Shown here: piece by piece, positions 1 to 15,568 of the stretch
Position numbering within the stretch: position 1 is the stretch's first letter
How the letters are laid out: each line of letters opens with the position of its first letter
Source of the DNA: Aquificota bacterium
GTDB taxonomy: Bacteria; Aquificota; Aquificia; Aquificales; Hydrogenothermaceae
Reading direction: 5' to 3'
Assembly (NCBI GenBank): GCA_013153295.1
Contig: JAADEV010000101.1
Coordinates: 1-15,648, forward strand
Length of the DNA: 15,648 nt
Position numbers and translations under genes: made by a program
The notes under the pieces: generated by a model
Database searches by the model: none
Seen by the model: the letters and a program-made list of their open reading frames with translations, nothing else
Told to the model about the DNA's origin: nothing

Positions 1-43
1 ACGGTTATGAGCCGTCTGCTCTAACCAACTGAGCTACGGGCCC
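1..43 (-). tRNA. tRNA-Met (CAU anticodon), 5' part only
   Basis: Read on the minus strand, this gives the acceptor 5' half GGGCCCG, then T8-A9, a D arm GCTC...GAGC with loop AGTTGGTTA, and an anticodon stem GACGG with loop CTCATAA. The anticodon CAT is at window positions 9-7. The rest of the anticodon stem, the T arm and the 3' end lie beyond the left edge. A CAU anticodon fits elongator Met or, after lysidine modification, Ile2. The initiator is less likely, because its acceptor stem normally has an unpaired first base, but pairing cannot be checked without the 3' half. The gene has its own promoter just upstream. Confidence 0.93.
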
Positions 44-61
44 CTATCAATTAGGATAATA

Positions 62-90
62 ATATTATCCCAAATCAAGAAAAATATCAA
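62..90 (-). promoter_or_regulatory. Sigma70-type promoter of the tRNA-Met gene
   Basis: On the minus strand a -35 box TTGATA (90-85) is followed by a 17-nt spacer and a -10 box TAATAT (67-62). This places the start site near 55, about 12 nt before the mature tRNA 5' end. The -10 lies inside a perfect 17-nt palindrome, GGATAATA-A-TATTATCC (54-70). Spacing, box quality and position agree well with a stable-RNA promoter. Confidence 0.6.
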
Positions 91-127
91 GCTTTTGTAT
101 CGGTTCAATCTTTCTAAACTTGTACAT

Positions 128-631
128 TTAAAAGATAGTCCATCTAAAGTGGACAAAGCCCATAATCTTTTCTATATCCCTTACAACCTTTTCCATTATC
201 TCGCCTTCGTAGGTTCCTGCATACATTCTGGACATTAGGTAGCCGTTCATAAGAGCAACAACAACCCTTCCATCACTTTTTTCAACAACAGCTATACTTA
301 AAGGCATCTTTACAGCCATATACTTTGTGTCATCATTTTTTAACATCTGTGAGGCATACTTTGCGTTGCAGAACTTTATGATTTTTACATTACCAACATC
401 TTCACCGCCGTATTTCAGTATCTCCTCCCTTTGGTCTATAACAGAGACAACGTGCCACCCCGGTTGGTTGTTTATTCTGTTCACTATTATAGATACCGTT
501 TTTTCAAAGTCGTAGGGACTTACAACCTCTTTAAAGAATGCCGTTTTAAAGGACAGCTTAAAAAACAATGGTGTTATAAAAACACCAATTACTAAGCCTA
601 TAATTACCCCTATTCCTAAAGCCCTTTTCAT
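128..631 (-). CDS. Membrane-anchored DUF302 protein
   Basis: This 167-aa protein has an N-terminal hydrophobic segment (about residues 5-26) after MKR, which looks like an uncleaved signal anchor. Residues 40-160 form a DUF302 domain. Recognisable pieces are the GW motif after the first helix, the block around IIKFCNAKYA, the block MPLSIAVVE, and the following strand ending VVVALMNGYLM. The biochemical function of DUF302 is not known to me; its fold is a small alpha/beta domain often found near redox or sulfur-oxidation genes. The domain is inferred to sit outside the cytoplasmic membrane. The start is supported by GAGGAG (643-638), 6 nt upstream and built into the final codons of the SLAC1-like gene, which ends only 3 nt earlier. 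The two are therefore co-transcribed and probably translationally linked. No clear terminator follows before the tRNA promoter. Confidence 0.85.
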   Translation of the reverse strand: MKRALGIGVIIGLVIGVFITPLFFKLSFKTAFFKEVVSPYDFEKTVSIIVNRINNQPGWHVVSVIDQREEILKYGGEDVGNVKIIKFCNAKYASQMLKNDDTKYMAVKMPLSIAVVEKSDGRVVVALMNGYLMSRMYAGTYEGEIMEKVVRDIEKIMGFVHFRWTIF

Positions 632-634
632 CTT

Positions 635-1594
635 TTACTCCTCTACAACACAGATTTTTCCTTTTTTTGCCGCTATTAATGTTTTGTAAGCCACTGTGCC
701 TACAATAACTGTTGTTATTAGTAAAAACACAATGGAGGAAGCATAGGTAATACTGTTCCTGTAAGCCATATACATAAGCATTGTTGCTATTGTTAACGCC
801 GCCATTGGGAATGTGTAAGCCCACCACGATATAAAGAACTCAAGTCTAAGGAAAACCTTTGCCATTATAACCATTAAAAAGAATGTAAACAGGGCAACAA
901 AGTAAAGTATTAAACTGAAAAAGTCTATACTTCCAAATGTTAGTCGCATATAGCTTATAAAACCTACCGCAGGTGGGGCTATTAGTATAAAGAATGTGGG
1001 AAGTAGTCTTTTAGCCATCGGATTATGAAAAATCATTCTGTATATAATTATTGTGAACAACACAACCCAGAAAAACAGCCCAAGGGCAAAGTAGAAGATA
1101 GATAACTCCTCAGGCATAACATCAACCCCAACAACAGGGACTAAAACATTACCTACAACAGGGATAAACCAAGCAGGTGATATATGGTTAATCTCAAACT
1201 CGTGTAGTATCCAGAACTTCATAGTTTTGTATGTAAAATACAGATGTAAAGGGGCACCTAAATACCAGTATGTTATTGCCACTGTAGGGGCAAAATCGTA
1301 ATATGCAATGGATATTAAAAGGAAACTTATAGAGATTGCCGCACCAAAGGAACTTTTTACAGGGTGTTTAAACTCCTTTGCTACAGCGTGGGGATACTTA
1401 AGCCATTTGACCATATATGTGATAAATATAAGGAAAAATACCACCGTATCTAATACAAGTAGTGTATGGTAAAAGAAAGCTGGGATTTCAAGGAAGTGGT
1501 AAGCCTTTGCATAGGCTATAGTTAAACCTGAAAGCCCCATTACAACAGCAAAAAGCTGAACAGGGAAACCTTCTAAACTTCTGCCCTTATCCAT
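635..1594 (-). CDS. SLAC1/TehA (TDT) family anion channel or transporter
   Basis: A 319-aa polytopic membrane protein with about ten hydrophobic segments and short loops. Its sequence style matches the tellurite-resistance/dicarboxylate transporter (TDT) family, which includes plant SLAC1 and bacterial TehA. Supporting blocks are FPVQLFAVVMGLSGL in the first helix, HPVKSSFGAAISIS before the third, and SPAWFIPVVGNVLVPVVG near the middle. Family members pass small anions (chloride, nitrate) or export sulfite or dicarboxylates; the substrate cannot be read from this sequence. ATG at 1594 has AGAGG (1605-1601) 6 nt upstream and a good promoter (1663-1635). It is the first gene of a two-gene unit with the DUF302 protein. 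tehA is a weaker name than the family label, because tellurite resistance is not implied. Confidence 0.85.
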   Translation of the reverse strand: MDKGRSLEGFPVQLFAVVMGLSGLTIAYAKAYHFLEIPAFFYHTLLVLDTVVFFLIFITYMVKWLKYPHAVAKEFKHPVKSSFGAAISISFLLISIAYYDFAPTVAITYWYLGAPLHLYFTYKTMKFWILHEFEINHISPAWFIPVVGNVLVPVVGVDVMPEELSIFYFALGLFFWVVLFTIIIYRMIFHNPMAKRLLPTFFILIAPPAVGFISYMRLTFGSIDFFSLILYFVALFTFFLMVIMAKVFLRLEFFISWWAYTFPMAALTIATMLMYMAYRNSITYASSIVFLLITTVIVGTVAYKTLIAAKKGKICVVEE

Positions 1595-1608
1595 TTGAAA
1601 CCTCTGCG

Positions 1609-1624
1609 GTTAGTATTCGCTAAC
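1609..1624. repeat. Small inverted repeat in the leader of the SLAC1-like gene
   Basis: GTTAG-TATTCG-CTAAC is a perfect 5-bp inverted repeat with a 6-nt spacer. It lies just downstream of the predicted minus-strand start site (about 1628) and upstream of the Shine-Dalgarno. It could be a 5'-end hairpin or a repressor site, but it is short enough to be chance. Confidence 0.25.
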
Positions 1625-1634
1625 TCCAATATCT

Positions 1635-1663
1635 ATAATATTAATATTTTTGCATACTTTCAA
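1635..1663 (-). promoter_or_regulatory. Sigma70-type promoter of the SLAC1-DUF302 unit
   Basis: On the minus strand TTGAAA (1663-1658), a 17-nt spacer and TATTAT (1640-1635) form a near-consensus promoter. The predicted start is near 1628, giving a leader of about 33 nt. It overlaps a candidate promoter for mrp on the other strand. Confidence 0.6.
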
Positions 1664-1678
1664 TAGTGTTAAGATAAA
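1650..1678 (+). promoter_or_regulatory. Candidate promoter of mrp and the IscS-like gene
   Basis: TTGCAT (1650-1655) and GATAAA (1673-1678) are separated by 17 nt. The start site would be near 1685, leaving a leader of about 93 nt. The boxes overlap those of the opposite-strand promoter, so the two may compete for polymerase. It is a weaker match to consensus than the opposite-strand promoter. Confidence 0.35.
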
Positions 1679-1703
1679 TTGAAAAAACAGAGCTTTTTTT
1701 GAC

Positions 1704-1721
1704 CTATGACTGGTATCATAG
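1704..1721. repeat. Inverted repeat in the mrp leader, possible operator
   Basis: CTATGA-CTGGTA-TCATAG is a perfect 6-bp inverted repeat with a 6-nt spacer, inside the predicted mrp leader. The geometry suits a dimeric regulator, possibly one controlling Fe-S genes, but no known consensus is recognised. As RNA it would be a weak AT-rich hairpin. Confidence 0.3.
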
Positions 1722-1778
1722 TTAGAGGCTATCCACAAATTATTCTATTATTACTAAAATGCAAAAAGGAGGGGTTTA

Positions 1779-2846
1779 ATGGCACTTCAAGGAGTTATGG
1801 ACGCACTGAAGAACACAAACTTACAGGAGATTGGGGTTAGCTTTTCCCTTGCAGACCTGATGCGGGATTTAAAAATAGATGGAAACAATGTTTACATAAA
1901 ACTTTTTTCCCCAAGTGAAAAATACCACGATTACCTAAAGGAGAAAGCTGAAACAGTCCTAAAATCCCTTGGGGCTGAAAGGGTTGAAGTTGAGTTTACA
2001 TCTGAACCACCTAAACAGCAACAACCACCACAACCTCCCCCAACTGCACAGCAGAACCCTTTTGAAAGTAGAAGGAGAATACCAAATGTTAAAAAGGTTA
2101 TAGCTGTAGCCAGTGGTAAAGGTGGTGTAGGAAAGTCCACTGTAGCTGTAAATTTAGCGGCGGCTTTAAAAAAGAAAGGATACAATGTTGGATATTTAGA
2201 CGCTGATATGTATGGACCGTCTGGTCCCACAATGTTAGGGGCTAAGGATAAGCAGGTTGTAGCCACACCTGATAACAAACTAATACCACCTGAAGCCCAC
2301 GGTATAAAAATGATGTCCATAGGGTTGCTACTTCCATCTGAGGATACACCTGTTATATGGAGAGGTCCAGTCCTGTTTAAAGCCCTATCCCAGTTTTTGT
2401 TTGATATAGATTGGGGTGATGGGTTGGATTTCCTTATTATAGACCTGCCACCGGGAACTGGAGATGTTCAGATTACACTTGGGCAGACAGCGGAAATAGA
2501 CGGGGCAGTAATTGTTACAACTCCCCAAGATGTGGCTTTAATAGATGTTAAAAAGGGGATACAGATGTTTAACGAGGTTCAAATACCTGTTTTAGGTATA
2601 GTAGAGAATATGAGCTACTTCGTATGCCCAGATAACGGTAAAAAGTATGAGATTTTTGGAAAATCTAAAACAGAAGAGGTAGCCAAACAGTATAATACTG
2701 AGATTTTAGGAAAGGTTCCAATAGAGCCTAAGGTTGCAGAGTTTGGGGATTTAGGTATACCTATTGTGCTGGCAAAGGAGGACAGCACATCTGCAAAGGC
2801 TTTTATGGATATTGCAGACAACCTTATAAGGAGGATTAGCCAATGA
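1779..2846 (+). CDS. mrp: Mrp/ApbC/NBP35-family Fe-S cluster carrier P-loop ATPase
   Basis: This 355-aa protein belongs to the cytoplasmic P-loop ATPases that hold a [4Fe-4S] cluster at a dimer interface and deliver it to apoproteins. Residues 1-75 form a degenerate MIP18/DUF59-like domain without that domain's usual cysteine. A Pro/Gln-rich linker follows (about 78-95), then the ATPase domain. The deviant Walker A GKGGVGKST is at 113-121; DADMYGPSGPTM and FLIIDLPPGTGD also fit the family. The family CxxC that binds the cluster normally lies after the ENMSYF block. Here it reads C283-P-D-N286, so the second cysteine is missing. AGGAGG (1767-1772) sits 6 nt before ATG. Its stop overlaps the next start as ATGA. 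The family assignment is firm. Whether it still carries a cluster is uncertain; cyanobacterial and alphaproteobacterial relatives are also known without this CxxC. Confidence 0.93.
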   Translation: MALQGVMDALKNTNLQEIGVSFSLADLMRDLKIDGNNVYIKLFSPSEKYHDYLKEKAETVLKSLGAERVEVEFTSEPPKQQQPPQPPPTAQQNPFESRRRIPNVKKVIAVASGKGGVGKSTVAVNLAAALKKKGYNVGYLDADMYGPSGPTMLGAKDKQVVATPDNKLIPPEAHGIKMMSIGLLLPSEDTPVIWRGPVLFKALSQFLFDIDWGDGLDFLIIDLPPGTGDVQITLGQTAEIDGAVIVTTPQDVALIDVKKGIQMFNEVQIPVLGIVENMSYFVCPDNGKKYEIFGKSKTEEVAKQYNTEILGKVPIEPKVAEFGDLGIPIVLAKEDSTSAKAFMDIADNLIRRISQ

Positions 2847-4078
2847 TTGAAACAAGGGGTATCGTTTATGTAGACCATCTGGCTACAACACCTGTGCCAG
2901 AAGAGATTGTGGAGGTTATGAAACCTTACTTTACAGAGAAGTTTGGAAACCCTACATCTTTACATAGATTGGGAGTGGAGGCTAAAAAGGCTATAAACAG
3001 AGCAAGGGAGCAGGTAGCCCAGCTTTTAAATGTAAGCAAACCTGAGGAAATTGTTTACACATCAGGGGCTATAGAGGCAAACAATCTGGCTATAAAAGGC
3101 TACGCCAAAGCCCCCGGTATAACCAGAAGGGGAAAACATATAGTAGTCTCCGCAATAGAGCATCACTCTGTTTTACACTCCTGTAAAACACTTGAAAAAG
3201 AAGGTTTTGAGATAACATACCTAAAACCGGATAAGTATGGAATAATCTCCCCTGAACAGGTATCCGAAGCGGTAAGGGAGGACACAATACTGGTATCAAT
3301 AGGATACGCCAACAGGGAAATAGGAACTATACAGGATATACAGGCTTTAGTAAAAGCGGCAAAGGAAAAAAACCCAAGGGTTGTATTCCACTCTGATATA
3401 GCCCCTGCAGTTGGACATACACCTGTTGATGTGGAAGGCTGGGGTCTAGATATGGCTTCTTTTACAGGACATTACTTCTATGCCCCTAAAGGTGTTGGAG
3501 GTCTTTATGTTAAAAAGGGTGTAAGACTGAAGCCACTTATAGAAGGAGGAATACAGGAAGGTGGCAGAAGGGCTGGAACTGAGCCTGTTCCAGCTATAGT
3601 AGGAATGGGAGCGGCGGCTGAGCTGTCAATAAAAGAGATGGATGACAGGGTAAACAGGCTAAAGGCTTTAAGGGATAGACTAAAGAAAGGTATAGAGGAA
3701 AAAATCCCCTATATCCAGTTTACAGGACACCCTGAGAAAAGGTTGCCTAACCACCTTTCACTTATTGTTATGTATATAGAAGGGGAGGCTATGTTGCTAA
3801 TGCTTGATTACCACAAGATATACACAGCCTCCGGGTCTGCGTGTGTATCCTACGCATTAAAACAATCCCATGTTTTAGAGGCAATAGGAGTTGAAAAGGA
3901 AGCCTCAAACGGTTCTATTGTTTTCTCCCTTGGAAGGGAAAACACAGATAAGGATATAGACTACATACTTGAAAAGTATCCAGCGGCAGTCCAAAGACTT
4001 AGGGAAATATCCCCATTTAGCCCAGAAAACTGGGACGAGTTTACCAAAAAGGCAAACAAATACAAAAATGTCCAGTAA
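2843..4078 (+). CDS. IscS/NifS-fold protein lacking the PLP lysine (probable pseudo-cysteine desulfurase)
   Basis: The 411-aa sequence aligns along its length with group I cysteine desulfurases: LATTPVP at the N-terminus, EHHSVL (active-site His at 107), QE-GRRAGTE, and the loop SGSAC with the persulfide cysteine at C334. The PLP site has changed. The family motif HK-x-YGPKG reads H210-Y211-F-Y-A-P-K-G, so the Schiff-base lysine (E. coli IscS K206) is Tyr. The Gln beside it (Q183) is P188, while the PLP-pyridine aspartate is kept (D185). The substrate-carboxylate Arg (E. coli R354 by my alignment) is V360. Y211 to C334 is 123 residues against 122 in E. coli, so the alignment holds. It probably cannot perform PLP-dependent desulfuration; a scaffold, cluster-ligand or sulfur-relay role is inferred. 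Archaeoglobus IscS, as I recall, also lacks this lysine yet binds IscU. Its start overlaps mrp by 4 nt. Automatic annotation would probably call it cysteine desulfurase. Confidence 0.88.
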   Translation: MIETRGIVYVDHLATTPVPEEIVEVMKPYFTEKFGNPTSLHRLGVEAKKAINRAREQVAQLLNVSKPEEIVYTSGAIEANNLAIKGYAKAPGITRRGKHIVVSAIEHHSVLHSCKTLEKEGFEITYLKPDKYGIISPEQVSEAVREDTILVSIGYANREIGTIQDIQALVKAAKEKNPRVVFHSDIAPAVGHTPVDVEGWGLDMASFTGHYFYAPKGVGGLYVKKGVRLKPLIEGGIQEGGRRAGTEPVPAIVGMGAAAELSIKEMDDRVNRLKALRDRLKKGIEEKIPYIQFTGHPEKRLPNHLSLIVMYIEGEAMLLMLDYHKIYTASGSACVSYALKQSHVLEAIGVEKEASNGSIVFSLGRENTDKDIDYILEKYPAAVQRLREISPFSPENWDEFTKKANKYKNVQ

Positions 4079-4082
4079 AGTT

Positions 4083-4102
4083 AGCCCCTACTGGGGGCTT
4101 TT
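4083..4102 (+). terminator. Intrinsic terminator after the IscS-like gene
   Basis: AGCCCC (4083-4088), loop TACTG and GGGGCT (4094-4099) form a 6-bp GC-rich stem followed by TTT. It sits in the 22-nt gap between the convergent IscS-like and ClC genes and overlaps the ClC stop codon. On the minus strand the sequence after the stem is less T-rich, so it mainly serves the plus strand. Confidence 0.7.
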
Positions 4103-5855
4103 ATACCTTTGTTAAAACCTTACCTATATCGTAATCTGACACTATTCCAATAAGGATATTCTCCTGTAGGTTGTTAACCACAGGGGCGGCACCGATATTA
4201 TTTTCAATAAATATACTTATTGTTTCAAACAGTGTTAAATCCTGAGTTATTCTTATCGGGTTAGGGTTCATAATTTCCTTTACAGTGGTGTCTCCCATAT
4301 CCATCTCACAGGCTTTTATCACATCTGTGCTTGTTATTAAACCAATTAGTATATTTCCCTCTTCAACCACAGGTAGAACAGATATATTGTTTTCCTGCAT
4401 ATACTTACTTGCTGTTATAACAGTTGTATCCGGTGAAACGGTAATAACATTCCTCTCCATAACATCTCTAACGGTGTATCTATTCAGTATCAGGTATTTA
4501 AACTCCTCCCTGTGGACAGGACTGTCTAATTTTGTGTTAACCTGACTTTTAAATATACTTTTTTCTCCTGAAAAGAAATGGGAAACAGCAACAGAGATTG
4601 TTGCAGGAACAAGGAGCTGGTATCCACCTGTTATTTCAGCCACCAGTATTATCGTTGAAAGGGGAGCTTTAGCCGCCGCGGCAAATGTGGAAACCATACC
4701 GACCACAGTAAAGGCAGTTAGGTTAAATGTGGAGCTTTCCGGGAAGCCAGCAAAATCCCTTAAAAAGAAGTAAACAGAAGCCCCTGTAAGACCACCTATA
4801 ACAAGTGAAGGACCAAAAACCCCACCTGACCCACCGGAACCAAGTGTAAAGGCAAAAGCCAAGATAACCAAAGCCACACTTATAACAATCTTCCACGGGG
4901 GAAAATCCCCTAAGTTGTTCATCATAATCATTTGTAGCCAGCCGTAGCCGGTGCCTATAGCCACAGGGACAGTCATACCTATAATACCTACCAAGAAACC
5001 ACCTATAGCCGGTTTAAAAACAGGGTGAACCTCAAGCCTGTCAAACAGTCCCCTTGCCCAATCAAGGGCAAAAATCATTACCCTTGCTATAACAGATGTT
5101 ATAAACCCTAAGATAATATACCCTACTGCATCGTAAACAGAAAAACCTGAAAACGGAGGTAGTTGGACGAAAAACAAAGGGGAAAAACCAAAAACAGAAG
5201 CAACAATAATAAAAGCAACAAAAGAGGCAATAAAAGCAGGTATTAATGTTTCTGTTTCAAAATCCCTTTTGTAAAAAACCTCAGAGCTGATAATAGCCCC
5301 TGCAAAAGGGGCTTTAAAAACCCCACCTATCCCCGCCCCAAGCCCAACAGCCATAGCAATATTCCTCTCCTTTTCAGAAAGGGAAAATAGCTTTCCAACA
5401 AAGGAGCCAATAGAAGCCCCAATTAACGCTATAGGTCCCTCTTTACCTGAAGTTTGCCCACTACCTATAGTTATGGCAGAGGTTATTAACTTCCAAAAGG
5501 CAGTTTTTAGCCCCAACTCCTTCCTTTCGTGGAATGCCTTAATAGCCGCATCTGTCCCAACCCCTGCAGACTCAGGGGAGAAAAAATGTGTAAGGATACC
5601 AACAATCAACCCACCTAAAGCGGTGGCAACAGGGAGGAGGTAAGGGTGTTCCATCACAAAGTTGTAATCTAAGCTACCACCTTCACCTAAGGGTTTAGGG
5701 GGAATATAACCAACAAACTTAACAAGGAAAATATCTGTAAAGAGATGTATAGCCTCTAAAAAAAGAACACCAAAAATCCCTGCTACAGCCCCAATAACAA
5801 TAGGAACAAACGCAGTGCGGTAATCAAACTTGTATCCCAGTATGTTTTTAAACAA
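4101..5855 (-). CDS. ClC-family chloride channel/transporter with C-terminal CBS pair
   Basis: This 584-aa protein has the full ClC membrane domain (about residues 12-430) and a cytoplasmic CBS pair (about 461-516 and 525-581). Signature pieces are GSGQTSGKEGP (131-141) with the gating glutamate E139, GSGGSGGVFGP (339-349), and the anion-coordinating Tyr in GYQLLVP (Y412). At the site of the ClC-ec1 proton glutamate E203 the sequence is SEVF with V193. The GSGIP serine loop reads GVGTD (98-102). Loss of the proton glutamate is typical of channel-type ClCs, but some transporters also lack it, so the transport mode is open. CBS pairs usually sense adenine nucleotides. The start is TTG at 5855; I found no in-frame ATG or GTG upstream, and the ribosome site is weak (GGG, about 10 nt away). 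It is convergent with the Fe-S pair and divergent from murD. Confidence 0.92.
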   Translation of the reverse strand: MFKNILGYKFDYRTAFVPIVIGAVAGIFGVLFLEAIHLFTDIFLVKFVGYIPPKPLGEGGSLDYNFVMEHPYLLPVATALGGLIVGILTHFFSPESAGVGTDAAIKAFHERKELGLKTAFWKLITSAITIGSGQTSGKEGPIALIGASIGSFVGKLFSLSEKERNIAMAVGLGAGIGGVFKAPFAGAIISSEVFYKRDFETETLIPAFIASFVAFIIVASVFGFSPLFFVQLPPFSGFSVYDAVGYIILGFITSVIARVMIFALDWARGLFDRLEVHPVFKPAIGGFLVGIIGMTVPVAIGTGYGWLQMIMMNNLGDFPPWKIVISVALVILAFAFTLGSGGSGGVFGPSLVIGGLTGASVYFFLRDFAGFPESSTFNLTAFTVVGMVSTFAAAAKAPLSTIILVAEITGGYQLLVPATISVAVSHFFSGEKSIFKSQVNTKLDSPVHREEFKYLILNRYTVRDVMERNVITVSPDTTVITASKYMQENNISVLPVVEEGNILIGLITSTDVIKACEMDMGDTTVKEIMNPNPIRITQDLTLFETISIFIENNIGAAPVVNNLQENILIGIVSDYDIGKVLTKV

Positions 5856-5943
5856 TTTTTGAACCCAGCATACAAGTAGAAATATTTGTTTATAAAACTT
5901 ATATTATTATCACTTTATTTTACACTTTTCGGAGAAACCGATA
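5856..5943. promoter_or_regulatory. Divergent promoter region between clc and the murD operon
   Basis: This 88-nt AT-rich gap must hold the start signals for both clc and the murD operon. On the plus strand the best pair I see is TTGTTT (5886-5891) with TATCAC (5908-5913), spaced 16 nt, and TATTAT also occurs at 5902-5907 and 5905-5910. None is near consensus. No convincing minus-strand pair was found. The murD ribosome site GGAG (5931-5934) lies 9 nt before its ATG. Confidence 0.4.
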
Positions 5944-7200
5944 ATGTTCTTGATTTATGGAAAAGGGAAGACTGGACAGCAGGTTGCACAGTTTTTACAG
6001 AGAAGGGGAGAGGAGTTTATACTTAGAGATGATACAGACTTTACGCCTTCAGATTTAGATAAAGTTAACACTGTTATAGTATCACCGGGTATACCTTTCT
6101 ACCATCAGATATACAAGTTAGCAAAAAAAAGAAGAATACCTGTTGTAGGGGAGGTTGAGTTTGCATACAACCTTTTTAAAGGGGATATTATCGGTATAAC
6201 AGGGACAGATGGAAAAAGCACCACAACAAACATACTTGGAACACTACTTGAAGAAAAAAAGCCTTTTATCGGTGGAAACTTCGGTGAGCCGTTTATAAAC
6301 GCTGTTGATAAAGACTACAGCCTTGCTGTTTTAGAACTTTCCTCATTTCAGCTTTACCCAATAGAAAGGTTTAAACCTAACATTGCAGTTTTTTTAAATA
6401 TACATACAGACCACCTTGACTGGCATAAAAGATACAGCCACTACCTACTTTCAAAATGTAAAATATTCAAAAACCTTACACCACAGGATAAAGCTGTTTT
6501 AAACTACCAGCAAAAGGGTATAAACTGGAACAAAATAAAAGGGGAGAAATACTTTTTTTCACTGGAGAGGCTACCTTCCAACATAGAAGGGGCATACTGG
6601 AACGGAAAGGGTATCACCGTCCAAATAGGCGGAAGGACAGAGTTTATAGATACTTCCCAATATAGGCTAAAAGGGATACATAACATACAAAACCTAATGG
6701 CTTCTGTTGTTGCAGGGATACTTTACGGCTTAACAGCAGACCAAATACAGGGGAAGATACCAGAAATAAAAGGTATGCCCTTTAGATTACAGTATGTAAA
6801 CAGTCTAAACGGAGTAGATTTTTACAACGATGCGAAGGCAACCACCCCAAACGCCGTTGAAACAGCTGTTAACAGCTTTAAAAACAGAGGTGTAATCCTG
6901 ATAGTAGGGGGAATATACAAAGGTGGGGATTTTTCCTTTTTAGACAGATACAAAAATATAAAGAAGGTTATCCTCTTTGGTAGGGATAGGGACAAAATAA
7001 AAAAGTTTATAAAATCCACAGATTACTCAGTTGGGGAAACCCTTGAAGACTGTATAAAGGAGGCTTACAAGGTTGCCGAAAAAGGTGATGTAATCCTCTT
7101 TTCCCCCGGTTGTGCCAGCTTTGATATGTTCAAAAACTACATAGACAGGGGAAACAGATTTAACAAATTGGTGGAGAGTTTAGTTAATGCTAAGAAATAG
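5944..7200 (+). CDS. murD: UDP-N-acetylmuramoyl-L-alanine:D-glutamate ligase MurD
   Basis: MurD adds D-glutamate to UDP-MurNAc-L-Ala in the cytoplasm with ATP hydrolysis. The 418-aa protein has a Rossmann-like N-terminal domain beginning FLIYGKGKTG, with VIVSPGIP. The central Mur ligase ATPase domain has its P-loop GTDGKST at 87-93, where Asp stands at the position often Asn. Then come LELSSFQL, the NIHTDHLDWH block, and the carbamylated-lysine region LLSKCKIF. The C-terminal domain contains FYNDAKATTP, VGGIYKGGDF and the ending block ILFSPGCASFDMF, which is MurD-specific within the Mur ligases. ATG at 5944 follows GGAG by 9 nt. It is the first gene of the operon and overlaps ftsW by 14 nt. 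Confidence 0.96.
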   Translation: MFLIYGKGKTGQQVAQFLQRRGEEFILRDDTDFTPSDLDKVNTVIVSPGIPFYHQIYKLAKKRRIPVVGEVEFAYNLFKGDIIGITGTDGKSTTTNILGTLLEEKKPFIGGNFGEPFINAVDKDYSLAVLELSSFQLYPIERFKPNIAVFLNIHTDHLDWHKRYSHYLLSKCKIFKNLTPQDKAVLNYQQKGINWNKIKGEKYFFSLERLPSNIEGAYWNGKGITVQIGGRTEFIDTSQYRLKGIHNIQNLMASVVAGILYGLTADQIQGKIPEIKGMPFRLQYVNSLNGVDFYNDAKATTPNAVETAVNSFKNRGVILIVGGIYKGGDFSFLDRYKNIKKVILFGRDRDKIKKFIKSTDYSVGETLEDCIKEAYKVAEKGDVILFSPGCASFDMFKNYIDRGNRFNKLVESLVNAKK

Positions 7201-8350
7201 GTATATTGACGGTTGGCTTGTCCTCAGCTTCCTTTTACTTGTTGGACTTGGGGCAGTTTTTATACTCAGTGCCGCTTCAAGTGGAGGTTTTATAAACAAT
7301 CCGTATAAAAAAAATGAGCTAATAAATATCTTTATAAGAGAACCTATTATACTAACAGTAGGTTTTTTTACAGCCCTTGTGTCCTACCTACTACCTGTTT
7401 CATTTTGGAAAAGGATAGCCTATCCACTTGCAGGAGTTGTGATTTTACTACTTGTTGTGGTTTTGGTAGTTTCTTGGGGGACAGGGAAAAGTGTAGCAAG
7501 GTGGATTAACCTTGGATTTATAAACTTCCAACCTTCAGAACTGGCTAAGCTGTCGGTTATACTCTACCTTGCATACCTGCTTAGTATAAAGGAAAAAAAG
7601 AGGGATTTTGCCTTTTTTAAGGATTACAAAGGGGTACTTGTGGCAGTATCAATCCCTTTGATTATGGCGATTTTAGTTTTTATAGAGCCTCACAAAGGTG
7701 CGGCGGCTTTTATACTTTTACTTACATTTTTTATACTTGCAGTGTCAAAAATCCAGTTTAGGAAGTTGGTTATTGTTTATTTAGGGATAGTTTTATCTGC
7801 CCTTTTACTACTTATTGCATACAAAGGTATTGATGGTTTTTTAAAAAGCTACTTTGTAAAAAGGATTGTTATACTTATAAATCCCACAAAACACAGAGAT
7901 GAAGGTGGTTTCCAGATAGAACAGGCGAGGAACTCATTTATAAGGGGAGGTCTTATTGGAGTAGGTATAGGAAACAGTATGCAGAAAAAAACCTATGTCC
8001 CTGAGATACACACAGATTTTATATTTGCCCTTATCGCTGAAGAAACAGGGTTTTTAGGGGCTTCCCTTGTTTTTTTCCTTTTTGTTGTTATCTTTTACAG
8101 GGGAATGGTTATTACCTTTCGGCTTAGGGAAACCTTTGATAAACTGCTTGCTGTAGGGATAACACTCTTTTTCTCACTACAAGCAATACTACATATGGCT
8201 ATAAACCTTTTACTTTTTCCCCCTACAGGGATTACCCTTCCATTTATCAGCTACGGTGGAAGTTCATTTATTGTATCCTCTATATGTGCAGGTATACTAT
8301 TAAGGCTGTCTAAAGAGATGAGGATAAAATCCCTACAAGAGGTGTTATGA
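7187..8350 (+). CDS. ftsW: SEDS-family septal peptidoglycan glycosyltransferase FtsW
   Basis: FtsW is the membrane glycosyltransferase that polymerises lipid II at the division site with a class B PBP. The 387-aa sequence has about ten membrane helices. SEDS motifs are seen in order: ARWINLG then FQPSELAK (about 114-121), an extracellular loop with INPTKHRDEGGFQ carrying the conserved aspartate D238, GGLIGVGIG (254-261), and TDFIFALIAEETG (276-288). The C-terminal block GITLPFISYGGSS is also typical. FtsW is preferred over RodA because of its place in a division cluster between murD and murG. ATG at 7187 lies inside the end of murD, 10 nt after GGAG. It overlaps murG by ATGA. Confidence 0.94.
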   Translation: MLRNRYIDGWLVLSFLLLVGLGAVFILSAASSGGFINNPYKKNELINIFIREPIILTVGFFTALVSYLLPVSFWKRIAYPLAGVVILLLVVVLVVSWGTGKSVARWINLGFINFQPSELAKLSVILYLAYLLSIKEKKRDFAFFKDYKGVLVAVSIPLIMAILVFIEPHKGAAAFILLLTFFILAVSKIQFRKLVIVYLGIVLSALLLLIAYKGIDGFLKSYFVKRIVILINPTKHRDEGGFQIEQARNSFIRGGLIGVGIGNSMQKKTYVPEIHTDFIFALIAEETGFLGASLVFFLFVVIFYRGMVITFRLRETFDKLLAVGITLFFSLQAILHMAINLLLFPPTGITLPFISYGGSSFIVSSICAGILLRLSKEMRIKSLQEVL

Positions 8351-9408
8351 AAGTATTTATAGCTGGAGGAGGAACAGGGGGACATTTTTATCCCGCTGTA
8401 TCTGTAAGTAAGTATCTAACAGAAAAACTCAACGCTGAAGTTTACTACTTCGGGACTAAGTATGGTATAGAGGCAAAAAAGGATTTCCCTGCAAAACATA
8501 AAAAGCTACTTGATATTAAAGGGGTAAGGGGAAAGAACCCTATCCAATCTTTAAAAAACAGCCTTAAGCTGTTAAAGGCTACTTTACAGCTTGTATCTAC
8601 TATAAAAAAGGAAAAGCCAGACTTTACACTTTGTTTTGGGGGATATACAGCAGTTCCCCTTGGGCTTGCATCTGCAATTACAGGAACACCACTTTTTATA
8701 CACGAGCAGAACTCTATACCGTCATACTCAAACCTACTTTTATCAAAGGTGGCAAAGAAGGTTTTTATAACATTTCCGTTTACAGAAAAATACTTCCCAC
8801 CTGAAAAAACTATCCTGTCTGGAATGCCTGTAAGGGAGGAGTTGAAACAACAGATAAAAACCCCTACTAAAGAAGCAAGGGAAAGGTTGTCCCTTCCACT
8901 GGATAAAAAGGTTGTCCTGTCCTTCGGGGGAAGTCAGGGGGCAAAAAGATTAGCAGAAACAACTATAGCCACAGCGGAAAAGATGGAAGATATACATTTC
9001 CTACTAATTGGGGGGAAACATTTCCCAAAGCCACAGAAACTACCACCTAACATTACATACTACCAGTATATAGACCAGTTTGGATACGCCTATGCCGCAG
9101 CTGACATTGTGGTCTCAAGGGGTGGGGCAAGTTCTGTTTACGAGATACTATTTGCAGAAAGATACCCGATTTTTGTCCCATTTCCCCACGCAGTTTCAAA
9201 CCACCAGTATTACAATGTGAAATGGCTTGAGGATTTAGGGGTAGCCACAGTAATACTTGACAGCCAGTTAACACCTGATACACTTGCCACAGCTATAAGG
9301 GAAGGGTTAGGAAAGGATATGAAAACTGTAAAGGAAACGATGGAAAAAGTTAGAATAGATAATGCCCAACAACTGATTGTAGAAAGGATAATAAATGAAA
9401 TCAGTTGA
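8347..9408 (+). CDS. murG: UDP-GlcNAc:lipid I N-acetylglucosaminyltransferase MurG
   Basis: MurG transfers GlcNAc from UDP-GlcNAc to lipid I on the inner membrane face, giving lipid II. The 353-aa protein is a GT-B glycosyltransferase of normal length. The first glycine loop GGGTGGH is at residues 7-13, followed by FYPAVSVSKYL. LCFGGYTAVPLGLA and the acceptor-site block HEQNSIPS come next. The second glycine loop SFGGSQGAKRL begins the C-terminal domain, and the UDP-GlcNAc region SRGGASSVYEIL leads to FPHAVSNHQYYN. The start overlaps the ftsW stop by 4 nt (ATGA), indicating coupled translation. The 3' end overlaps murB by 14 nt, leaving no room for murC, which commonly follows murG. Confidence 0.97.
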   Translation: MKVFIAGGGTGGHFYPAVSVSKYLTEKLNAEVYYFGTKYGIEAKKDFPAKHKKLLDIKGVRGKNPIQSLKNSLKLLKATLQLVSTIKKEKPDFTLCFGGYTAVPLGLASAITGTPLFIHEQNSIPSYSNLLLSKVAKKVFITFPFTEKYFPPEKTILSGMPVREELKQQIKTPTKEARERLSLPLDKKVVLSFGGSQGAKRLAETTIATAEKMEDIHFLLIGGKHFPKPQKLPPNITYYQYIDQFGYAYAAADIVVSRGGASSVYEILFAERYPIFVPFPHAVSNHQYYNVKWLEDLGVATVILDSQLTPDTLATAIREGLGKDMKTVKETMEKVRIDNAQQLIVERIINEIS

Positions 9409-10267
9409 TTATGAAGAGTATGTAGACCTGTCAAAGCTATGCACAATAAAAATCGGCGGAAAGGCTAAAAAGGTATACTTCCCAAAGAGCCTACAGGAAG
9501 TCCAAGACCTTGTTAAACTATCACTGGACAGTGGGAAAAGGCTTATACCTATAGGGATAGGCAGTAATACAGTATTTAAAGACGGATTACTTGACTACCT
9601 GTTTGTATCCTCACGGGCTTTAAAGAAGGTAGATATAAACCAAGAAGGGGATTATTTCCTTATAACAGCCCAAGCAGGTGTTAGCTTTAAAACCATTGTA
9701 TCTATTGTGAAAAAATACAACCTTGAAGGGTTTGAAAACCTAAGTGGTATACCCTCAACTGTAGGCGGAGCTGTGGTTATGAACGCAGGGGCTTTTGGCA
9801 GTGAGATAGGGGATATTATCCAAAATGTTGTGTGGGTTGATGGTAGAGGGCAGGTTAGGGAGTTAAAAAGGGAGGAGATACAGTTTGGATACAGGAAATC
9901 CCCCTTCCAAAATGGGGGCTTTGTATACAGTGCCACACTAAAACTTAAAAAAAGCAGTAAAAACATACCACAGATAATAAAAAAGCTACTACAGGAAAGG
10001 AACAAAAAACAGCCACTAAACTACCCAACCAGCGGGTCTACATACAAAAACCCAAAGGAAAAGCCAGCTGGATACCTACTTGAAAGTGTAGGACTGAAAG
10101 GATACAGAATAGGAGATGTTGCCTTTTCTGGGAAACACGCAAACTTTTTGGTAAACCTTGGGAACGGCAGATATGCCCATCTAAAGCGGATTTTAGAAGA
10201 AGCCGAAAATAGGGTAAAACAAAACTGGAATATAACACTTGAAAGGGAAGTTAGAATTGTTGAGTGA
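9395..10267 (+). CDS. murB: UDP-N-acetylenolpyruvoylglucosamine reductase MurB
   Basis: MurB is the FAD-dependent, NADPH-using enzyme that reduces UDP-GlcNAc-enolpyruvate to UDP-MurNAc. The 290-aa protein is of the shorter, type II form. FAD-binding blocks are PIGIGSNTVF (52-61) and SGIPSTVGGAVVMNAGAFGSE. The active site shows Y166-R167 in FGYRKSPF and the proton-donor serine S215 in SGSTYKNP (213-220). HANFLVNLG near the C-terminus is also diagnostic. The start lies inside murG with a 14-nt overlap (ATG at 9395). The end overlaps the ddl start by about 11 nt. Confidence 0.96.
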   Translation: MKSVDYEEYVDLSKLCTIKIGGKAKKVYFPKSLQEVQDLVKLSLDSGKRLIPIGIGSNTVFKDGLLDYLFVSSRALKKVDINQEGDYFLITAQAGVSFKTIVSIVKKYNLEGFENLSGIPSTVGGAVVMNAGAFGSEIGDIIQNVVWVDGRGQVRELKREEIQFGYRKSPFQNGGFVYSATLKLKKSSKNIPQIIKKLLQERNKKQPLNYPTSGSTYKNPKEKPAGYLLESVGLKGYRIGDVAFSGKHANFLVNLGNGRYAHLKRILEEAENRVKQNWNITLEREVRIVE

Positions 10268-11168
10268 TATTAAAATAGCGTTAGTATACGGAGGAACCTC
10301 ATCTGAGAGGGAAATCTCAATAAAAAGTGGGGAGGCTGTAAAGGAGGCTTTAGAAAGACTGAAAGCCAACTTTAAAGTATTTGACCCAATAGATAGGGAA
10401 AACTTTATAAAAGGTATACTTAAGTATAAACCTGATGTGGCGTTTAACCTCTTACACGGAAAAGGGGGGGAAGACGGAAAGATACAGGGCTTTTTTGAAA
10501 CAGCAGGTATACCTTACACAGGTTCACCTGTAAAGGCAAGTGCCGTCGCTATGGACAAAGCCCTAACAAAACTAATAGCCAGAGAGGGAGGCGTCCAAAC
10601 ACCAAACTGGACAGTCGTCCAATCTGTAAGGGAAACGGTAAAATGGGAAACATTCCCAGCTGTTGTAAAGCCAAACGAGGAAGGGTCTTCCATAGGGGTC
10701 AGTATAGTAAACAACAGGGAAGAGTTAGAGGAGGCTGTTAAACAAGCCCTAAAGCTGGATAAAAAAGTTCTTATAGAGGAGTTTATACAAGGTAGGGAGC
10801 TTACAGTTGGGATAGTCGGAGACCTACTACTTGAACCTATAGAAATAAAAGTGGAAGAGGGCTTTTACGATTACAAAAATAAATACTTTTCAAACAAAAC
10901 AAAATATATAGTATCCCCACCATTACCCCAACAGGTAAGGGAAAGGCTGTTTTTTTATGCCCTTACTGTATACAACAGCTTAGGGTGTAAAGGTGTAGCA
11001 AGGGTAGATTTTATACTAAAGGATAAAACCCCATACTTTTTAGAGATAAACACAATACCGGGTATGACAGACCACAGCCTTGTCCCAAAGGCGGCAAAGT
11101 TTATGGGAATAGATTTTGACCAGCTGGTAGTTAAGATTATTAAAGGTGCTTTAGATGAAAAACAGTAA
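10257..11168 (+). CDS. ddl: D-alanine:D-alanine ligase Ddl
   Basis: Ddl joins two D-alanines with ATP to make the dipeptide that MurF adds to the wall precursor. About 303 aa, ATP-grasp fold. It begins KIALVYGGTSSEREIS, where the Glu of SERE contacts the first D-Ala. LLHGKGGEDGKIQG and the ATP-binding EEGSSIGVS follow. The metal-binding C-terminal block is RVDFIL then YFLEINTIPGMTDHS, with the Glu and Asn that bind magnesium. There is no ATG or GTG near the N-terminus. TTG at 10257 is chosen because AGGGA (10244-10248) lies 8 nt upstream. TTG at 10260 would also work and would give MSDIKIALV; TTG at 10239 would add six residues unlike the family and lies upstream of the SD. Overlaps ftsQ by 14 nt. 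Confidence 0.94.
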   Translation: MLSDIKIALVYGGTSSEREISIKSGEAVKEALERLKANFKVFDPIDRENFIKGILKYKPDVAFNLLHGKGGEDGKIQGFFETAGIPYTGSPVKASAVAMDKALTKLIAREGGVQTPNWTVVQSVRETVKWETFPAVVKPNEEGSSIGVSIVNNREELEEAVKQALKLDKKVLIEEFIQGRELTVGIVGDLLLEPIEIKVEEGFYDYKNKYFSNKTKYIVSPPLPQQVRERLFFYALTVYNSLGCKGVARVDFILKDKTPYFLEINTIPGMTDHSLVPKAAKFMGIDFDQLVVKIIKGALDEKQ

Positions 11169-11877
11169 AAGGAAAAAAAGATACTTTGTAGCAGGGCTTG
11201 TTTTTGTATCCTGTGCAGTAGTATGTGTATCAATCTTTGTCCTACCGGAGCTGAAAAGACACCTGAAAGTAAAAAGGGTTGTTCTCGGCGGAACAGGGTT
11301 TGAAAAAAAAATCCCAAAAAGCTATGTGGAAAAGCTGTTTACTGGACAGAACTGGCTTTTACTTGAGGAACAGAAAATAAAAAAAGAGCTGAAAAAAAGG
11401 TTTCCCTTTGTAAAAGAAGTGGTAATAAAAAGGAGGGGAATAGGGGAGATTTACCTCTATATCAAAGAGAGAAAACCTATCTTAATAGTATTTTACAAAG
11501 GTCGTAAATATCTGGTAGACAGTGAAGGGGTAGTTTTACCTAAAAAGTATTACAATACTCAACATAGATTACCTATATTGATATATAATGATAGGGTAGT
11601 AGCAGACAGACTATCCATAAATGGGCTGTTTGCAGATAAAATAAGGAAGGTATACAAGCTAAATAAAGAACTGGGACAGGTAGCTTTCTGTGTAAAGTAT
11701 ATTGGGAACAGGGACAAATTAACCTGCAAAACAAAGAAAAAACAGCAGTTTATATTTAGCTTTTCAAATTTAGATGAAGAGATAGGAAAAGCAAAACTGT
11801 TCTTTTCAAAGGTGGACACCAGTAAATATAGTATTCTGGATTTTCGTTTTAAACCAATGGTAGTTGCAGGGAGATAA
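11155..11877 (+). CDS. ftsQ: Cell division protein FtsQ (POTRA domain)
   Basis: FtsQ is a bitopic membrane protein that links early and late divisome proteins through FtsB/FtsL. The 240-aa sequence starts with a very basic tail (KNSKRKKR), then a membrane segment at about residues 11-31. A POTRA-like region follows (about 38-105), with LFTGQNWLLLEE and KKELKKRFPFVKEVVIKRR in the usual positions. A beta-domain runs from KERKPILIVFYKGRKYLVD onward. FtsQ is poorly conserved, so the call rests on topology, the POTRA pattern and position between ddl and ftsA. The start overlaps ddl by 14 nt, and ftsA begins 3 nt after its stop. Confidence 0.9.
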   Translation: MKNSKRKKRYFVAGLVFVSCAVVCVSIFVLPELKRHLKVKRVVLGGTGFEKKIPKSYVEKLFTGQNWLLLEEQKIKKELKKRFPFVKEVVIKRRGIGEIYLYIKERKPILIVFYKGRKYLVDSEGVVLPKKYYNTQHRLPILIYNDRVVADRLSINGLFADKIRKVYKLNKELGQVAFCVKYIGNRDKLTCKTKKKQQFIFSFSNLDEEIGKAKLFFSKVDTSKYSILDFRFKPMVVAGR

Positions 11878-11880
11878 CAG

Positions 11881-13140
11881 ATGGGCGATAGGAGGACGGT
11901 AATAGTCCTTGACATAGGGACTTCAAAAATAATCACACTGGTAGCTGAGGTAGATGATAATGATATTACCATCATAGGTTATGGGGAGGAAAAATCACAG
12001 GGCATAGAGAAAGGAACTATAGCCCACAGGGATAAACTTAAAAAAGCAATAGTAAACTCTATAAAGAAAGCAGAGGAATATATAGGGGGCAACTTTCCAG
12101 CTATAAAATCTGTTTACACAAATATATTCGGGGTAGGGTTAGAAAGTAAAAAAGCCTCAGAAAGTATAGAATTTGAAGAGGAAGACAGAAAAATTACCAA
12201 AGAAGATGTGGACGAGCTATACAAAAGGGTGGAAGAAAAACTAAAAACCCCCAGAAGTAATTTTGAGATAATCCATATATTAGACCAAAACTTTATCCTT
12301 GATGACGGTTCAGAGGTTGAATATCCAATAAACTCAATAGCCTCAAGGATAGAGGGACACTTTATAGTTATCACAATACCCAGAAATGTTTACAGAAACC
12401 TTGAGGATTTAATTAGAGACGCTGGATATGAGATTGAAGGTATGGTTGCCAACCCTATTGCATCTGCAGAAGCGGTATTAGACCAAGATGAAAAGGATAT
12501 GGGGGTTGTTGTTATAGATATGGGAGCAGGCTTTACAGATGTGGCTGTATACAAAAATGGAAGCCTTGACTATATAACATCGTTTCCATTTGGAGGTAGT
12601 CTTATAACATTTGATATAGCTTATGTATTTAAGTTGCCTAAAAGTGATGCAGAAGAGTTAAAAAAAGAACACGGCGTAGCCTCAGTTGAAAGGATAAGGG
12701 AAAATAACTATATAATAGATGTGGAAACAAGGGAAGAGGAAATAAAAGAAATAACAGTGGTGGAGTTGGCAGAAGTTATAGAGAGCCGTTTAGAGGATTT
12801 ATTCAGTAGGGTTAAGAAAAAACTTGAAGAGGACGGCTACAAAGAGTTGCCAAAGGGAGGTATAGTCTTAACAGGAGGGGAGGCAAATCTACCTTATATA
12901 AGGGAGATTGCCTCAAGGATATTTAAAGCAGATGTTAGGATAGGTAAACCTAATAGGGGATACTTTGGGTTTGGGGATATACTAAACAACCCTAAATACT
13001 CCACCGCTATAGGTATGCTTTTATTTAAAAAAGATGAATATAAAAAATACACAGATATATCAAACCCTTTACCTGATTTTGGAGGCTTAAAAAACAAAGC
13101 TACAAGTTGGCTACAAAAATTAAAAAATCTTTTCCATTAA
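11881..13140 (+). CDS. ftsA: Cell division protein FtsA, actin-like membrane tether of FtsZ
   Basis: FtsA is an actin-fold ATPase that tethers FtsZ to the membrane and recruits later divisome proteins. The 419-aa protein opens with the phosphate-1 loop VLDIGTSKI (about 9-17) and has the SHS2/1C insertion after GTIAHRDKLKKA. The phosphate-2 region is VVVIDMGAGFTDVAVY, and the adenosine motif is IVLTGGEANLPYI. The C-terminus, ATSWLQKLKNLFH, looks like the amphipathic membrane-targeting helix, after a linker. GGGAG (11869-11873) lies 7 nt before ATG. ftsZ follows after 18 nt. Confidence 0.96.
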   Translation: MGDRRTVIVLDIGTSKIITLVAEVDDNDITIIGYGEEKSQGIEKGTIAHRDKLKKAIVNSIKKAEEYIGGNFPAIKSVYTNIFGVGLESKKASESIEFEEEDRKITKEDVDELYKRVEEKLKTPRSNFEIIHILDQNFILDDGSEVEYPINSIASRIEGHFIVITIPRNVYRNLEDLIRDAGYEIEGMVANPIASAEAVLDQDEKDMGVVVIDMGAGFTDVAVYKNGSLDYITSFPFGGSLITFDIAYVFKLPKSDAEELKKEHGVASVERIRENNYIIDVETREEEIKEITVVELAEVIESRLEDLFSRVKKKLEEDGYKELPKGGIVLTGGEANLPYIREIASRIFKADVRIGKPNRGYFGFGDILNNPKYSTAIGMLLFKKDEYKKYTDISNPLPDFGGLKNKATSWLQKLKNLFH

Positions 13141-13158
13141 ACAGGGAGGATAAAAGTA

Positions 13159-14337: not shown

Positions 14338-14893
14338 GACCGGCAACATAAAGTTAGGTCTTATATGGAAAAATATACAAACTATAAATTTAGCCAACCT
14401 GTTTACAATATCACGGCTTGTTATAACCCCTGTGCTTATATACACTATCCTTAATGATTACTACCTTGTATCAGGTGGACTTGTTGCTGTAGCGGTAGCC
14501 TCCGATTGGCTTGATGGTGTAATAGCAAGGAAACAAAACGACACAACTAAACACGGTGAGCTGTTAGACCCTGCTGTGGATAAAATATTTACAATATCTG
14601 TTTTAGTAGCCTTTGTTGAAAAACAGCTAATATCCAGCTTTGTTGTTTTTCTAATAGTATTAAGGGAGATGATGATTACTTGGTTTAGAAGTGTAATGGT
14701 AAACAAGGGGGTTGTTGTCCCTGCATCTTTCCACGGCAAGCTGAAAACCACACTACAGCTTATAGCCATATTTTTACTTTCTATAAAGGTTGTTGATATA
14801 GGGGTGGCGTTTTTATGGTTTTCAATAGCCATTGCATACTACTCTGCCTTTGAGTATATGAAAGAATACATAAAAAACAGGGTTTGGGAGTAA
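14327..14893 (+). CDS. pgsA: CDP-diacylglycerol:glycerol-3-phosphate phosphatidyltransferase PgsA
   Basis: PgsA makes phosphatidylglycerophosphate, the committed step to phosphatidylglycerol and cardiolipin, at the inner membrane. The 188-aa protein contains the full CDP-alcohol phosphotransferase signature: D60-x2-D63-G64-x2-A67-R68-x8-G77-x3-D81-x3-D85. It begins with a typical NLANLFTISR helix entry and has several hydrophobic helices. The start is GTG at 14327, overlapping ftsZ by 11 nt. I saw no other ATG, GTG or TTG before the conserved region, and GGGA lies upstream within ftsZ. The signature alone does not settle the acceptor alcohol; pgsA is the best fit by length and N-terminus. Confidence 0.9.
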   Translation: MRSETGNIKLGLIWKNIQTINLANLFTISRLVITPVLIYTILNDYYLVSGGLVAVAVASDWLDGVIARKQNDTTKHGELLDPAVDKIFTISVLVAFVEKQLISSFVVFLIVLREMMITWFRSVMVNKGVVVPASFHGKLKTTLQLIAIFLLSIKVVDIGVAFLWFSIAIAYYSAFEYMKEYIKNRVWE

Positions 14894-14895
14894 AG

Positions 14896-15489: not shown

Positions 15490-15493
15490 TGTG

Positions 15494-15522
15494 AACTACT
15501 CCTTAATAAATTCGGAGAAGTT
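15494..15522 (+). terminator. Candidate hairpin after plsY
   Basis: AACT-A-CTCC (15494-15502) pairs with GGAG-A-AGTT (15514-15522) around an 11-nt loop, with one A-A mismatch. The tail after it is only moderately T-rich (TCCAGTTTATTTA). It may help end the long operon, but it is not a classic intrinsic terminator. Confidence 0.3.
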
Positions 15523-15544
15523 TCCAGTTTATTTATAGGATAGC

Positions 15545-15568
15545 GAAGATTATTAACAATTTTCTTTT
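15545..15568 (+). terminator. Candidate weak terminator of the murD-plsY operon
   Basis: GAAGATT (15545-15551), loop ATTAAC and AATTTTC (15558-15564) form a 7-bp stem with one G-T pair, followed by TTTT. The stem is very AT-rich, so its strength at high temperature is doubtful. It abuts the 3' end of tmRNA on the other strand. Confidence 0.3.

Follow-up and report, generated by a model that had tools for sequence, protein, structure and literature searches.

A lysine-less IscS homologue with a retained loop cysteine in two families of Aquificota

Can a protein with the fold of IscS serve iron-sulfur (Fe-S) cluster assembly once the residues of its pyridoxal 5'-phosphate (PLP) chemistry have been replaced? 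The question is raised by a gene at positions 2843-4078 of a contig from a heat-loving Aquificota bacterium of the family Hydrogenothermaceae (GenBank assembly GCA_013153295.1, contig JAADEV010000101.1, positions 1 to 15,648 of the forward strand). The whole 15,648-nucleotide stretch is referred to here as the window and the gene product as pseudo-IscS. In most accounts of the ISC and NIF pathways, cysteine desulfurase is the invariable first step; here the protein is kept and the catalytic residues are dropped. Where pseudo-IscS is the only IscS-type protein found, a role of IscS besides persulfide making becomes testable. The locus also bears on how Fe-S assembly may be fed from sulfide in a lineage that has oxygen-respiring members, and nif-linked copies in related genomes extend the question to nitrogenase.

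The available data suggest that these bacteria build Fe-S clusters without drawing the sulfur from cysteine at pseudo-IscS. Pseudo-IscS probably pairs with IscU, as a protein of IscS shape, in a minimal ISC system from which the desulfurase reaction has been dropped; Cys334 would be a cluster ligand and, less surely, sulfide the feed. The broader proposition is evenly balanced: that most of the Aquifex family and part of the window's family carry out Fe-S assembly, and some diazotrophs nitrogenase cofactor assembly, without a PLP cysteine desulfurase, a PLP-less IscS or 'NifS' acting as the thiol half of a scaffold fed by sulfide or TusA.

The PLP site of pseudo-IscS

The open reading frame is intact, and the protein has a class-V aminotransferase fold together with a matching family profile. 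Its best NCBIfam match is TIGR03402 (NifS), at 468.9 bits against a cut-off of 530.75, while TIGR02006 gives 384 against 643.2; it lies under the cut-off of all 20 NCBIfam families listed. Residues were numbered by alignment to E. coli K-12 IscS (MG1655 record, locus L086) and tabulated for 90 orthologues, one per genome, from the 97 genomes with a pseudo-IscS match; genomes G003, G017, G022, G093 and G095 (partial), plus G100 and G102, are omitted from the table. The features are as follows.

2843..4078, plus strand: pseudo-IscS, an IscS/NifS homologue lacking the Lys, with an altered PLP site (open reading frame of 411 residues; NCBIfam and fold matches)
3071..3073, plus strand: Ile77, at the site of E. 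coli Thr76 (Ile in 90/90 orthologues)
3314..3316, plus strand: Arg158, at the site of E. coli Asn155 (Arg in 90/90 orthologues; Asn in 40/40 canonical rows)
3404..3406, plus strand: Pro188, at the site of E. coli Gln183 (Pro in 66/90 orthologues, Ala in 24/90)
3473..3475, plus strand: Tyr211 (tac), at the site of the Schiff-base Lys206 (Tyr in 34/34 of the window's family, Leu in 56/56 of the Aquifex family)
3842..3844, plus strand: Cys334 (tgt), counterpart of the persulfide/cluster Cys328 (Cys in 90/90 orthologues)
3920..3922, plus strand: Val360, at the site of the substrate-carboxylate Arg354 (Val in 89/90 orthologues, the remaining row being truncated)

The original prediction, made from the letters of the window, had paired Tyr211 with Lys206, Pro188 with Gln183, Val360 with Arg354 and Cys334 with Cys328, and all four pairings are right on this alignment. 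Thr76 of E. coli contacts the PLP phosphate. E. coli Ser203 is replaced by Thr208, which is Thr in 90/90 orthologues. PLP-site changes are thus found at six positions throughout, and no close relative with the lysine emerged, since it is replaced in 90 of 90. The prediction had also asked whether three of the replacements were common to an orthologous clade; the original residue is replaced at all three across the clade, with Val in 89 of the 90, Tyr throughout the window's family and Pro in 66 of the 90. His107 (E. coli His104), Asp185 (Asp180) and His210 (His205) are retained in 90/90.

Pseudo-IscS shares fold, length, Cys-loop core and part of the IscU face with canonical IscS/NifS proteins (E. 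coli IscS, TIGR03402, TIGR02006), and is 41-43% identical to the E. coli IscS chains among its fold matches. It differs from them in lacking Lys206, Gln183, Asn155, Thr76 and Arg354. According to the available part of PMC9978102, single substitutions in E. coli IscS at Lys206 (K206A), Gln183 (Q183E), His104, Asp180 and Cys328 cost activity, and Arg354Lys leaves it. Judged by its residues, pseudo-IscS would be unable to form an internal aldimine, would have lost cofactor and substrate contacts, and should be no working cysteine desulfurase. The PLP site has changed, and the cysteine and much of the IscU-contact face have stayed under tight selection. In the predicted model, loop 333-338 around Cys334 has a pLDDT (predicted local distance difference test) below 50, which suggests that the loop may be mobile.

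Distribution, descent and constraint

The phylum survey comprised 136 Aquificota genomes, 41 from the window's family (f1), 64 from the Aquifex family (f2) and 31 from the other three families. With fragments counted, a pseudo-IscS orthologue (62-92% identity) is present in 38/41 f1 and 59/64 f2 genomes, 97/105 in total, and in none of the 31 genomes of the other families. Family f2 includes Aquifex, as the IscU of genome G001 is identical to chain D of PDB 9wfy and one residue off 2z7e, which is named A. aeolicus IscU in the accessible text of PMC13423590. A scan of named genomes, limited to the best 80 of 315 loci and partly covering the same genomes as the survey, gave 24 pseudo-IscS loci (L006-L029, 82-92% identity), all with Tyr, Arg158, Val and Cys; one of these, L028, carries two stop codons. 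Among the same best 80 of 315, Lys is present in 54/56 loci outside the clade. The contig of L010 is labelled Flavobacteriales, although its pseudo-IscS is 89% identical, and it is probably a mis-binned Hydrogenothermaceae contig.

In a maximum-likelihood tree of 84 rows, with Archaeoglobus entered as the 4r5f D199K sequence, a 99/99 branch sets apart 32 pseudo-IscS rows and, on the same side, five more degenerate copies. On the opposite side are the canonical rows, 17 Lys-bearing Aquificota paralogues, Archaeoglobus IscS, and loci L052 and L069. Should the root lie among canonical sequences, pseudo-IscS would be one clade with one loss. Common descent with Archaeoglobus IscS is unsupported because the latter groups with the canonical rows, although its branch was one of those flagged as long by the tree program and its exact place is hence unsure. 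The two other loci, L052:6001-7152 (Endomicrobiellum) and L069:4578-5753 (metagenome-assembled genome SKW305, labelled Proteobacteria), are Lys-less with the Cys kept, belong outside Aquificota by label, and sit opposite pseudo-IscS across the main split of the tree; they appear to be further separate losses of Lys.

Constraint was compared with that on the Lys-bearing paralogue from the same genomes. In four congener pairs the ratio of nonsynonymous to synonymous substitution rates (dN/dS) is 0.017-0.027 for pseudo-IscS versus 0.116-0.148 for the paralogue, with dS mostly saturated and unsaturated in only one pair, G088/G092 (dS 0.37-0.44), where the values are 0.019 and 0.140. Across 16 f1 genomes with both genes (120 pairs), pseudo-IscS has a mean identity of 88.2% and a dN of 0.077, and the paralogue 58.0% and 0.350. 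The corresponding mean identities are 82.5% for Mrp (15 genomes) and 93.7% for IscU (11 genomes). Where both occur, the Lys-less gene is more constrained than its Lys-bearing paralogue.

The Lys-bearing paralogue itself is unevenly distributed. Near-complete genomes, defined by a completeness of at least 95%, number 25 in f1 and 34 in f2. The paralogue is found in 20/25 of the former, 19 times with all ten active-site residues and once (G083) as a short frame covering eight, and in 3/34 of the latter (G001, G009 and G024). No Lys-bearing IscS/SufS-type homologue was found in the other 31 near-complete f2 genomes, 30 of which have pseudo-IscS.

To look for an overlooked SufS or another IscS in these 31 genomes, 16 of them were searched again with PF00266 to an E-value of 0.001. 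The runner-up matches after pseudo-IscS had E-values of 4.6e-31 to 7.6e-26; 14 of the 16 runner-ups were taken and 13 read (L291 was left out, as were matches of 1e-11 and weaker), and all 13 belong to a single type that lacks the Cys loop, one of them profiled as a BhcA/AEP-transaminase-like protein. On these 13 proteins, the candidate was rejected. For the other 15 genomes, assessed by the number of PF00266 matches at E 1e-15, nothing stronger than 3.4e-35 stands among the matches listed, beyond pseudo-IscS and a nif-linked copy in G029. The genome search proposed in the original prediction succeeded in part for the window's own genome: IscU is on contig C71, but no second complete IscS/SufS was seen in an assembly that is 75% complete. 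No Lys-bearing copy was found in that assembly, the sole other strong PF00266 match (C148) being of the same transaminase type; congeners do carry a Lys-bearing copy.

IscU partnership and the source of sulfur

IscU is present in 97/105 f1 and f2 genomes and in 0/31 genomes of the other families. SufB shows the reverse, with 0/105 and 29/31, respectively (27 single copies of about 306-326 residues, a fragment in G109 and a double match in G120). The two systems therefore replace each other across the phylum, and f1 and f2 yielded just one of these scaffold systems, pseudo-IscS with IscU. The IscU residues C37, D39, C63, H105 and C106 are all retained in 47/47 rows from 45 genomes. Among 21 genomes searched, frataxin was found in none and HscB in one, as a weak match in G001. 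On the pseudo-IscS side, with interface positions of the E. coli IscS-IscU pair taken from the accessible text of PMC2854127, the IscU-facing E309, G310 and E311 are retained in 90 orthologues and E347, R381, S384 and P385 in 89, the remaining row being truncated; S326, A327 and L333 of the Cys loop are retained in 90/90.

Deposited structures include the same protein. PDB entries 9wep, 9wer, 9wew, 9wf8, 9wfb, 9wfe and 9wfy form a single family of matching 406-residue chains, deposited under the name 'cysteine desulfurase'. In 9wfy, a chain identical to the G001 protein over 396 residues and the IscU of the same organism are chains of one deposited structure. This Aquifex orthologue and the protein encoded in the window share about 70% identity, with the same residues lost and the same Cys; the orthologue differs in having Leu for Tyr at the Lys position, and in the contexts of its family iscU is not beside pseudo-iscS. 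At the lost positions, entries 9wep and 9wer have Thr, Asn, Gln, Lys and Arg (with Ser as well in 9wep), and 9wfe has Lys and Asn; these three are apparently restoring variants. Evidently, then, this very loss is under experimental study, together with IscU. Loss of desulfurase chemistry under selection, as first proposed from the window, has good comparative backing in clade-wide fixation, strong purifying selection, the kept core of the Cys loop and much of the IscU face, co-occurrence with IscU, linkage to mrp, and 9wfy.

The closest precedent is Archaeoglobus fulgidus IscS (4eb5, 4hvk, 4r5f), which had been cited in the original prediction as a lysine-lacking, cluster-ligating protein, and the literature agrees. 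In the available parts of the sources, this Lys-less protein has no activity and is a ligand of the cluster (PMC7585200), its Cys and three IscU Cys holding the nascent [2Fe-2S] cluster (PMC7585200, PMC9769115). Pseudo-IscS resembles it in the lost Lys, the kept Cys and an IscU encoded in the genome. Besides Lys, Archaeoglobus IscS has lost the counterparts of Gln183, His205 and Arg354; it keeps Thr76 and Asn155 and has Asn for His205, the reverse of the window protein. Two lineages therefore reached a similar state through partly different residues. Methanosarcina acetivorans IscS1 is likewise without Lys and encoded with an IscU; this likeness rests on the description in the accessible part of PMC7585200, where the protein is archaeal and stands alongside IscS2 and IscS3. 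The MIS system shares an IscS fold and IscU with no HscB or frataxin, but is described with a cysteine desulfurase, which pseudo-IscS by its residues would not be; with the SMS system, sulfide as the sulfur source would be shared (both in the part of PMC12192291 available). H2S compensates for absent IscS in anaerobic E. coli via IscU, according to the accessible text of PMC13015791.

Lys-less IscS as a kind is thus already published for Archaeoglobus. No account of a Lys-less IscS in Aquificota, or of nif-linked copies, was found in the titles and abstract beginnings of an open-licence library. New as far as found are the spread of the clade over two families, its exchange with SufB across the phylum, the absence of any Lys-bearing homologue found in most near-complete genomes of the Aquifex family, and the nif-linked copies.

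By analogy, cluster co-ligation of the Archaeoglobus type would be the most economical working model. A pseudo-IscS dimer would dock IscU and supply Cys334 to hold the cluster, the part played by Cys321 in Archaeoglobus. Fe(II) and sulfide could then form a [2Fe-2S] cluster at the junction of the two proteins, to be handed on, perhaps via Nfu or Mrp. The source of sulfur, a less certain step, may be inorganic sulfide, in which case no persulfide chemistry is needed.

Several observations weigh against this model. Archaeoglobus 4EB5 is drawn with PLP despite lacking Lys (figure legend in PMC9769115, available in part), and the retained counterparts of His104, Asp180 and His205 mean that some PLP binding by pseudo-IscS is possible. 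On the IscU face, S312 is Ala and L313 is Met, with A316 and (in f2) R379 also differing from canonical sequences, and T329, S332, E334 and P335 of the loop are invariantly Val, Ala, Lys and Gln. Genome G034 of the Aquifex family, which is 99% complete, has IscU and neither a pseudo-IscS match nor a Lys-bearing copy, with one PF00266 match at E<=1e-15; this is either an assembly gap or a true loss. The remaining points are the tusA genes on the iscU stretches, which suit a persulfide relay equally well, and the Lys-bearing paralogue of most near-complete f1 genomes, which could feed sulfur in trans.

The rival taken most seriously, because of the tusA genes on iscU stretches, is a persulfide relay: TusA, charged by rhodanese or DsrE-type proteins, would hand sulfane sulfur to Cys334, from which it would go on to IscU. 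PLP would then be dispensable because sulfur arrives already as persulfide, and the direction would be the reverse of the E. coli transfer from IscS to TusA. This relay is tentatively entertained as possible. A tusA gene is found on 13/13 iscU stretches (12 by motif and L310 by reading), including three stretches whose genomes lack a Lys-bearing copy, and 16 Lys-copy-free genomes have 4-5 TusA matches each, versus 1 in two SufB-type genomes. Rhodanese is present in 21/21 genomes and the Cys-loop core is retained. However, genomes with and without a Lys-bearing copy are not separated by TusA number, which may reflect sulfur oxidation: there are 4 in G080 despite its Lys-bearing copy, and 3 in the genome of the window. 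The E. coli TusA contacts W45, E49 and D52 are also not kept, but vary in canonical rows too.

Partnership with a real desulfurase, in which the Lys-bearing paralogue supplies sulfur and the Lys-less protein is acceptor, platform or inactive half of a dimer, could apply to the 20/25 near-complete f1 genomes that have both. It is an improbable general explanation, as no paralogue was found in 5/25 f1 and 31/34 f2 near-complete genomes, the paralogue does not adjoin pseudo-iscS in three contexts read, and its mean dN exceeds that of pseudo-iscS about 4.5-fold. An altered enzyme, whose pocket binds PLP or another ligand for a different chemistry, is comparably doubtful. His107, Asp185 and His210 are retained in 90/90, and none of the replacing residues Ile, Arg, Thr and Val varies, as if selection had favoured a new site; against this, nothing is left of the Schiff-base Lys, Gln183, Asn155 or the substrate Arg, and E. 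coli K206 and Q183 single mutants are already inactive, though R354K is not (PMC9978102, in the part available). Chance substitution in a dying or misassembled copy, to which the fragmented, 75% complete assembly of the window might lend itself, is practically out of the question, because the lone mutation, frameshift or decay that it would take is ruled out by fixation across 90 genomes of two families and by a dN/dS near 0.02, and the early judgement that this is not random decay therefore stands.

Neighbouring genes and nif-linked copies

The genes adjoining pseudo-iscS in the window are as follows.

1779..2846, plus strand: Mrp/ApbC, a NUBPL-type Fe-S carrier P-loop NTPase (PF10609, 340.6 bits), overlapping the start of pseudo-iscS
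4101..5855, minus strand: ClC chloride channel with CBS domains (PF00654)

The start ATG of pseudo-iscS overlaps the mrp stop codon as ATGA, and mrp lies immediately upstream in 35/35 contexts read (20 f2 and 15 f1), so the intact gene is coupled to mrp as originally proposed. The CXXC motif is essential in ApbC. Its second Cys is missing in 36/36 rows of Mrp (the window, with CPDN, and 35 relatives), and in row L248 both cysteines are missing. In the 15 f1 contexts iscU directly follows pseudo-iscS in 8, follows ClC in 6 and is elsewhere in 1 (L248); the order pseudo-iscS, ClC, iscU comprises six contexts of the window's genus. No iscU is on the stretch in any of the 20 f2 contexts. In the window itself murD is next after ClC, and the iscU of that genome is at L249:84-542 on contig C71.

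In the four stretches read (L246, L313, L310, L311), the order of the iscU cluster is iscU, a ThiI/MnmA-like ATP pyrophosphatase, tusA, a protein of 75-81 residues, nfu and mostly aroE. On contig C71 the cluster, with the ThiI/MnmA-like ATP pyrophosphatase, TusA and Nfu, spans L249:84-4199, and such a cluster occurs in both families. The ThiI/MnmA-like protein of L246 has an NFACT-R_2 domain; this protein of the iscU cluster may thiolate tRNA with no desulfurase involved.

The other three families (f3, f4 and f5; e.g. L300 and L303) have a small SufB and PF00266 matches mostly of only E 1e-27 to 1e-37, G126 with E 2.9e-46 being an exception. They are a candidate bacterial system of the sulfide-fed SMS type.

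A second, more degenerate Lys-less copy is found in nif regions of five f2 genomes (G028, G029, G031, G036 and G051), where the Lys position is Ser, Ser, Tyr, Ser and Phe, respectively. The loci of these second copies are as follows.

L304:6239-7432, minus strand: second Lys-less copy, nif region
L305:6121-7188, minus strand: second Lys-less copy, nif region
L306:6527-7648, minus strand: second Lys-less copy, nif region
L307:1675-2775, minus strand: second Lys-less copy, nif region
L308:2157-3353, plus strand: second Lys-less copy, nif region

The Cys of the second copy is kept in an S/T-P-C context. Each of the five adjoins a gene resembling that of homocitrate synthase (nifV-like) and another that, by reading alone, resembles the gene of an aldehyde ferredoxin oxidoreductase. 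The nif genes of G028, G031, G036 and G051 were recognised by reading and those of G029 by profiles, which place nifB and nifH above their cut-offs and give nifV and nifA as best matches below theirs. The second copy is a candidate PLP-less NifS.

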